From contig MNGW01000030.1 of the NCBI GenBank assembly GCA_001918935.1, positions 1 to 49,946 on the forward strand: 49,946 bases of DNA, written 5' to 3'. Shown here one piece after another: positions 34,844-36,879 of this stretch (position 1 is the first letter of the stretch; each line of letters opens with the position of its first letter). Origin of the DNA: Acidobacteriales bacterium 13_1_40CM_3_55_5. Lineage in GTDB: Bacteria; Acidobacteriota; Terriglobia; Terriglobales; Acidobacteriaceae. The translations under genes and the position numbers were made by a program. The notes under the pieces are model-generated. The model made no database searches. It was not told the origin of the DNA and saw nothing but the letters and a program-made list of their open reading frames with translations.

Positions 34844-34916
34844 AGCACTCAGCATTCAGCACTCAGCATTCAGCCGCATGGGCTGAGTGCTGACGGCTGA
34901 GTGCTGAATGCTTTTT
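34844..34916. repeat. Inverted/tandem CAGCATTCAGCACTCAGC-type repeat at the trmFO 3' end
   Basis: AGCACTCAGCATTCAGC occurs in two overlapping copies with a 14-bp period (34844-34860 and 34858-34874). AGCATTCAGCACTCAGC at 34851-34867 is the perfect reverse complement of 34896-34912, which is followed on the plus strand by TTTTT. It encodes the last residues of TrmFO on the minus strand. Confidence 0.8.
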
Positions 34917-36247
34917 GGCCAATGACCAACGCCTGCCCTTGCCAGCCAACCATCGAATTCTCGCAACCCGAGCTCACACTGCCTGCGATGCCTTTCCTGA
35001 CGATCCCGAACTTTTTGCTGCAACGGGGGCAAGAGGTCGAAGGTGATATTTACCGGCTGAAATCTCTTCGCGTCCGCCTGAGTGATGTAGTGCACCAAGG
35101 ATCCGAACGCGCTTGCTCGCGGAGGAGAAACCAGTTCTGCGCCACTACCGAGCGCTGACGCCTGAATCCCGGCCATCAGTCCCGTGGCAATGGACTCGAC
35201 ATAACCTTCCACCCCGCAAATCTGTCCGGCAAAAAACACTCGCTTATGCACTTTCATCTGCAAAGTATCGAGGAGCAGAGTGGGTGAGTTGATGTATGTA
35301 TTGCGGTGAATCTGCCCGTAGCGCAGAAAGCGAGCGCTTTCCAATCCTGGAATCAATCGCAGTACGCGAGCCTGCTCCGCGAATCTCAAATGGTTTTGAA
35401 ATCCCACCAGGTTGTAAGAATCCGCGCGCAAGTTCTCCTGCCTCAATTGCACCACGGCATAAGGACGACGTCCAGTTCGAGGATCGATCAGCCCAACCGG
35501 TTTCATGGGGCCAAACCGTAGAGTGTCCCGTCCTCGACGCGCGATCTCCTCGATCGGCAGACAGCCTTCAAAATAGTTCAGCTTTTCCCATTCCTTCTCC
35601 TCGACTGGCTGCGCGGCGAGCAATGCATCATAGAAACGGTCGTACTCTTCGCTAGTCATTGGACAATTAATGTAATCCGCTGAGCCCTTGTCGTAGCGAG
35701 CCGCCAGATAGACCTTCGACATATCAATAGAGTCCGCCTCGACTATCGGGCTAATCGAATCGTAGAAGTATAGGTTCGCTGTTCCTTCCGAAGATTCGCT
35801 GAGCCGTGCGATCTCTCTCGATAGCGCGTCGCTGGTCAACGGCCCGGTCGCAATAATCGTGATCTGCTCTTCGTCGATCCTGCAAATTTCTTCCCGCCGG
35901 ATCGTAATCAAGGGCTCGCGCGAGATGGTCTCCGTGACTTTAGCCGCGAAAGTCGCCCGATCCACGGCCAATGCGTGGCCTGCCGGGACAGCGCATTCTT
36001 GCGCAATCTCCATCAGCAGCGATCCCGCGAGGCGCATTTCTTGTTTCAAGAGCCACGGAGCGGTGTTGACGCTATCGGACTTGAATGAATTCGAGCACAC
36101 CAGTTCGGCGAACTGGTCAGTCTGGTGGGCCGGAGTCGAGCGCACGGGCCGCATCTCGCACAATTCGACACTCATCCCACCCCGCGCGCACTGCCAGGCG
36201 GCTTCCGATCCAGCCAAACCGGCCCCGATGATGCGTATCTTAGCCAT
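34856..36247 (-). CDS. trmFO: tRNA (uracil-54-C5)-methyltransferase, folate/FAD-dependent
   Basis: TrmFO makes ribothymidine at position 54 of tRNA, using methylene-tetrahydrofolate and FADH2 instead of SAM. The FAD-binding GxGLAGSEAAW is at the N-terminus (RIIGAGLAGSEAAWQCA), followed by CEMRPVRSTPAHQTDQFAEL and VCSNSFKSD, which holds the catalytic-type cysteine. The core YFYDSISPIVEADSIDM, YINCPMTSEEYDRFYDALL and GQICGVEGYVESIATGLMAG is complete. The last ~20 residues (SIQHSAVSTQPMRLNAEC) are encoded by an intergenic-type repeat and look acquired. The start MAKIRIIGAG is standard. Confidence 0.96.
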   Translation of the reverse strand: MAKIRIIGAGLAGSEAAWQCARGGMSVELCEMRPVRSTPAHQTDQFAELVCSNSFKSDSVNTAPWLLKQEMRLAGSLLMEIAQECAVPAGHALAVDRATFAAKVTETISREPLITIRREEICRIDEEQITIIATGPLTSDALSREIARLSESSEGTANLYFYDSISPIVEADSIDMSKVYLAARYDKGSADYINCPMTSEEYDRFYDALLAAQPVEEKEWEKLNYFEGCLPIEEIARRGRDTLRFGPMKPVGLIDPRTGRRPYAVVQLRQENLRADSYNLVGFQNHLRFAEQARVLRLIPGLESARFLRYGQIHRNTYINSPTLLLDTLQMKVHKRVFFAGQICGVEGYVESIATGLMAGIQASALGSGAELVSPPRASAFGSLVHYITQADAKRFQPVNITFDLLPPLQQKVRDRQERHRRQCELGLREFDGWLARAGVGHWPKSIQHSAVSTQPMRLNAEC

Positions 36248-36351: not shown

Positions 36352-36879
36352 ATGGCGCGAATCTCACTAATTCAACCCGAGCAAGCTTCGCCCGAAGTGA
36401 AAGAAATCTACGACAAGCAATTGCGTGGCAAGCCCGGCAATGTACAGAAGGCGCTGGCACACCGGCCGGAAGCACTTAAGAGTTTTCTGGCTTTCTACTC
36501 CAGTGTGGGTCGCTCACTCGAACGCAAACTTTACGAGCTCATTTACATTCGCGTCTCGATGATCAATAACTGTCACTATTGACTTCAGCACCATCTCGCT
36601 TCGTCGAAGCGAGTAGGCCTCACGCCTGAGGACTGGAACGCGCTGAAGCAAGCTGACTATCCACGATTTGGCGAAAAAGCACAAACTGCGCTCGCCTATG
36701 CGGAAAAGTTAACGCGGACTTCGTCCAAGATCACGGATTCCGATGTGGCAGGACTGACCAAGCACTTTCCAGATGCCGAAATCGTGGACCTGCATCTGCT
36801 GGTTGGACTGGCCAATCTTACCAACCGCTTCACTGACCCGCTGGGTCTCGAACTGGAGTTTGCAGAAGAAAAGATTTGA
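36352..36879 (+). CDS. AhpD-like / carboxymuconolactone decarboxylase-family selenoprotein (UGA read as selenocysteine)
   Basis: This 175-residue protein of the AhpD/carboxymuconolactone decarboxylase fold is probably a thiol-type peroxidase or disulfide reductase. Reading from ATG 36352, codon 77 is TGA (36580-36582). The frame continues without another stop to TGA 36877-36879, with clearly family-like sequence (QHHLASSKRVGLTPEDW, then LVGLANLTNRFTDPLGLEL). Around the UGA the protein reads CHY-U-LQHH, so UGA takes the place of the second Cys in the family's CxxCxxxH active site (C74, U77, H81). A hairpin with bacterial SECIS geometry follows. A translation stopped at the UGA would give only 76 residues and lose the active site. 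A nonsense mutation is the alternative, but it would not explain the motif position and the hairpin together. selA/B/C/D lie outside the window. Confidence 0.86.
36583..36613 (+). promoter_or_regulatory. Putative bacterial SECIS element
   Basis: Directly after the UGA at 36580-36582 come 12 nt and then a perfect 8-bp stem, CTCGCTTC (36595-36602) with GAAGCGAG (36606-36613), closing a GTC loop. The loop starts 20 nt after the UGA and with G then U. This agrees with the known bacterial rule of 16-37 nt to an apical loop with an early G. Confidence 0.75.

Follow-up and report, generated by a model that had tools for sequence, protein, structure and literature searches.

An AhpD-like gene of Terriglobales with an in-frame UGA predicted to encode selenocysteine in its active site

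Introduction

How should a UGA be read when it interrupts an otherwise open frame at the very codon where relatives of the protein carry an active-site cysteine? The question is raised by a gene in a 49,946-nucleotide stretch of DNA (the window), which lies in contig C112 of G000, a metagenome-assembled genome (MAG) of 2.87 Mb in 175 contigs that is 74% complete. Automatic annotation would end the protein at residue 76 and thereby lose the active site. Relatives that carry the gene are metagenome assemblies named as Terriglobales, 'Acidobacteriaceae' or Candidatus Sulfotelmatobacter, which places the source among the acidobacteria of this group.

The statement in the initial annotation that AhpD-like selenoproteins had been predicted before in metagenomes agrees with the literature. 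CxxU AhpD-like and CMD-domain selenoproteins were described from the Sargasso Sea in 2005, with 27 and 4 sequences, respectively (PMC1088965), and the 2008 GOS survey counted 299 selenoproteins of 'AhpD-like 1' (COG2128) and 70 of 'AhpD-like 2' (pfam02627) (PMC2398784). They also appear in a 2026 review (PMC13188914). We found no published acidobacterial AhpD selenoprotein in the open literature.

Results and discussion

Reading frame, active-site motif and protein family

The gene, which we describe as encoding a predicted selenoprotein of the AhpD-like or carboxymuconolactone-decarboxylase (CMD) fold, occupies positions 36352 to 36879 on the forward strand. Translation with TGA read as U gave 175 residues, with U77 in the context NNCHYULQHHLASSKR and a terminal TGA, bearing out the initial description of a 175-codon frame that is open except for a single in-frame TGA at codon 77. 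The active-site motif C74-H-Y-U77-L-Q-H-H81 (CxxUxxxH) spans positions 36571 to 36594 (forward strand), and at the level of single bases the TGA (36580 to 36582, forward strand) falls exactly at the second cysteine of CxxCxxxH, as had been proposed. An alignment of 29 orthologues showed C74, position 77 (Cys or Sec), Q79, H80 and H81 to be invariant, with C74, C/U77 and H81 making up the CxxCxxxH active site of the AhpD/CMD superfamily; U77 aligned with Cys in every Cys homologue, the outcome that the initial annotation had suggested looking for.

Profile searches placed the product in this superfamily through PF02627 (E=3.7e-17; 62.5 bits against a cut-off of 23) and the AhpD core domain TIGR00778 (36.3 bits, above its cut-off of 27.8), so that the label 'AhpD-like' holds for the AhpD/CMD fold and for a peroxidase-related protein but not for AhpD proper, whose model TIGR00777 gave 18.7 bits, far below its cut-off of 191.95. 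AhpD proper, as in Mycobacterium tuberculosis, shares the CxxCxxxH active site, in which the second Cys and the His are the catalytic residues. The best family-level matches, both nearly full length, were NF053654 (GroundWater_YciW, YciW-related (seleno)protein; 67.5 bits) and TIGR01926 (peroxidase-related enzyme; 67.3 bits), scores that lie below the curated cut-offs (310 and 81.8, respectively) and therefore place the product in neither family as curated. For the Terriglobales clade, the profile search returned no NCBIfam equivalog above its cut-off.

The closest solved structures were PA0269, a CMD-family protein of Pseudomonas aeruginosa (PDB 2ijc, 2o4d), and other peroxidase-related CMD proteins, with their CxxC aligning with C74 and U77. 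PA0269 is homologous over residues 38 to 167 (E ~1e-16), has Cys where the Terriglobales protein would have Sec, and has a shorter N-terminus. This homology to solved structures is enough to settle the fold.

The UGA among orthologues

Codon 77 was UGA in 12 and TGC or TGT in 56 of 68 distinct orthologues from Terriglobales (Acidobacteriota), a set obtained with an extraction pattern that accepted only these three codons at that position and that left out four loci at ≥58% identity (L072, L086, L122 and L116). The orthologues are 60-79% identical in protein sequence. On the tree of the gene at least three changes between Sec and Cys are required, and well-supported branches make two of these unavoidable.

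This distribution bears directly on whether the UGA is simply a one-base sequencing or assembly error for TGC, as might be suspected of a metagenome assembly. The same codon is UGA in 12 separate genomes at 60-79% protein identity, each time with the hairpin described below, and its recurrence in independently assembled relatives makes such an error very unlikely, to the point of being negligible.

In one UGA orthologue, L021 (positions 1495-2019), a further stop codon, TAA, lies in the N-terminal part and no clear start is seen, so that this copy may be damaged or misassembled; it was counted in the hairpin comparison and omitted from the protein alignment (A1).

A hairpin that accompanies the UGA

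Immediately after the motif, at positions 36595 to 36613 on the forward strand, lies a SECIS-like hairpin with an 8-bp stem, CUCGCUUC/GAAGCGAG, and a GUC loop. The hairpin reported by the initial annotation was reproduced in all its particulars, with perfect pairing and with stem and loop lying 12 and 20 nt from the UGA, and folding of the RNA returned a minimum free energy structure (-16.5 kcal/mol) containing exactly CUCGCUUC-GUC-GAAGCGAG. It resembles a SECIS in lying directly 3' of the UGA, in an apical loop that starts with G and in its conservation among the UGA forms; an Rfam scan of the gene matched no known RNA family. The fold had a z-score of -2.2, with 5 of 200 dinucleotide shuffles equally good, and the native sequence ranked in the best 1.3% when set against synonymous recodings of the identical peptide.

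A single hairpin would by itself be weak evidence, and it is the comparison of UGA with Cys orthologues that takes it well beyond chance. All 12 UGA genes keep 7 or 8 of the 8 pairs, whereas all 56 Cys genes keep between 1 and 6, a perfect separation of the two alleles (Fisher p ~1e-13, kinship ignored). Because pairs were counted on the structure of the window's own gene these counts carry some bias, and the association still stands when that gene is removed (p ~8e-13). Among the UGA genes, L031 shows a compensatory change from C-G to U-A in the stem, and G-U replacements occur in L027 and L039. The Terriglobales clade offers a clean natural comparison of a single enzyme in its Sec and Cys forms, with the recoding hairpin found only alongside UGA.

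The same data speak to the reading of the locus as a pseudogene, in which a nonsense mutation terminates translation and the remainder of the frame is decaying. A UGA is a stop by default, and this MAG, at 74% completeness, yielded no tRNA gene selC, both of which would fit such a reading. No decay downstream of the UGA, a possibility that the initial annotation had raised, was seen: the frame stays open before and after it, and comparison with the nearest UGA orthologue (L012) gave a dN/dS of 0.09 for the part preceding the UGA and 0.13 for the part following it, the latter indicating purifying selection (several further comparisons were saturated at synonymous sites and were excluded). The same UGA is common to 12 divergent orthologues, which are the only ones to have kept the hairpin. 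Selection and hairpin data together already contradict the pseudogene, which we regard as highly improbable.

Selenocysteine machinery

If the UGA is read as selenocysteine, the genome should supply the means, and the search for sel genes proposed in the initial annotation succeeded for three of the four. In the window's genome these three exceeded the NCBIfam cut-offs, selA at 480.8 bits, selB at 372.7 and selD at 357 (summed), but selC was not found in the MAG. The selD gene (L043:1069-2181, reverse strand; contig C43 of G000) has a UGA of its own at codon 18, in the context AAGUASKLSP and followed by a stem-loop, at the residue where selenophosphate synthetase is known to have its catalytic Cys or Sec; selD is accordingly predicted to be itself a selenoprotein gene.

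For tRNA-Sec, the best match to RF01852 in the 74% complete G000 scored 44.9 bits and was rejected as selC, with ARAGORN calling a tRNA-Gly at the same place. A genome of the same genus, G068, has a selC with anticodon UCA (67.9 bits) flanked by an antiporter gene (identified by eye); the antiporter was also found in G000, on a continuous contig (C27:4912-6286), with no selC adjoining it. On contig C72 of G068, selC is followed by a DUF3800-like ORF (identified by eye), which may reflect a mobile insertion at selC. Matches to RF01852 of at least 65 bits were present in 13 of the 13 other listed UGA-allele genomes (G110, G014, G076, G004, G053, G011, G029, G090, G112, G026, G078, G075 and G003), and 16 of 19 Cys-allele genomes had one exceeding 60 bits. 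One of the UGA genomes, G029, yielded no selB above the cut-off. With the MAG only 74% complete, selC may lie elsewhere in the genome, and as about a quarter of the genome is absent while selA, selB and selD are kept, we infer that selC is most likely just missing from the assembly.

The selC result would also be consistent with readthrough of the UGA by another route, either genome-wide recoding of UGA or insertion of Cys at UGA after loss of selC or selenium. Against this stand the use of UGA as an ordinary terminator at the end of the same gene, the retention of selA, selB and a UGA-bearing selD, and the occurrence of only Cys or UGA at position 77 in 68 orthologues (the only codons that the extraction pattern accepted), and we find this route scarcely probable.

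Orthologues, hairpin, selection and machinery are four agreeing lines of evidence that UGA77 is read as selenocysteine. The reading put forward in the initial annotation is thus strongly supported by the Cys homologues, by a hairpin that tracks the allele, by purifying selection downstream and by the presence of selA, selB and selD.

Proposed mechanism

We consider it very highly probable, from sequence comparison, that the product is a thiol/selenol oxidoreductase with the AhpD/CMD fold and that UGA77 is decoded as Sec through SelB-GTP, tRNA-Sec and the hairpin to give a CxxU redox product. By extension of the known bacterial Sec pathway to this sequence, SelB-GTP with Sec-tRNA would bind the hairpin 12 nt downstream and decode UGA77. 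By analogy with AhpD, Sec77 would be the likely residue attacking peroxide or another oxidant, aided by C74 and H81, with resolution through a selenenylsulfide with C74 as the resolving residue and with H81 taking part in a proton relay. Insertion of Sec in vivo, the redox chemistry and the substrate are what we infer from sequence, and for the substrate peroxides are the default guess.

Gene neighbourhood

The gene sits in a conserved setting. Its divergent upstream neighbour in the window is trmFO (GIDA family; positions 34856 to 36247, reverse strand; PF01134, E=5e-94), which is upstream in at least 53 of the 68 orthologous loci, and selB lies downstream and convergent in at least 58 of the 68, both counts being lower bounds because of contig ends and short flanks. 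The order trmFO, ahpD-like gene, selB is seen in L015, L017, L026, L061 and others. Across the 58 loci selB is some 100 bp to 2 kb away from the ahpD-like gene; G000 itself carries selB on a separate contig, C46. The adjacency extends to the Cys forms, at least 50 of 56 of which adjoin selB.

This conserved link with selB points to a testable role for the protein. It might work in selenium metabolism, for instance by reducing a selenium intermediate or by protecting the Sec-incorporation machinery, which would account for its constant place next to selB across most Terriglobales, whether the protein has Cys or Sec; since gene order may persist by synteny alone, we treat this functional reading as a lead only and think it rather unlikely.

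Relation to known AhpD-like selenoproteins

Compared by description, the Terriglobales protein shares with the Sargasso Sea and GOS AhpD-like sets, which are metagenome reads of mostly marine origin, the fold, a CxxU motif in which Sec replaces the second Cys, a SECIS-like hairpin downstream and widespread Cys homologues. Unlike those sets, the Terriglobales clade has a defined trmFO-selB neighbourhood. As CxxU selenoproteins of the AhpD/CMD type were already described in 2005 and 2008, the Terriglobales protein adds a lineage-specific member to a known group.

A second, more distant AhpD-like group of the same family (~33-39% identical; in G106, G133, G050, G074 and others) often has one in-frame TGA as well, which suggests additional Sec-containing paralogues.
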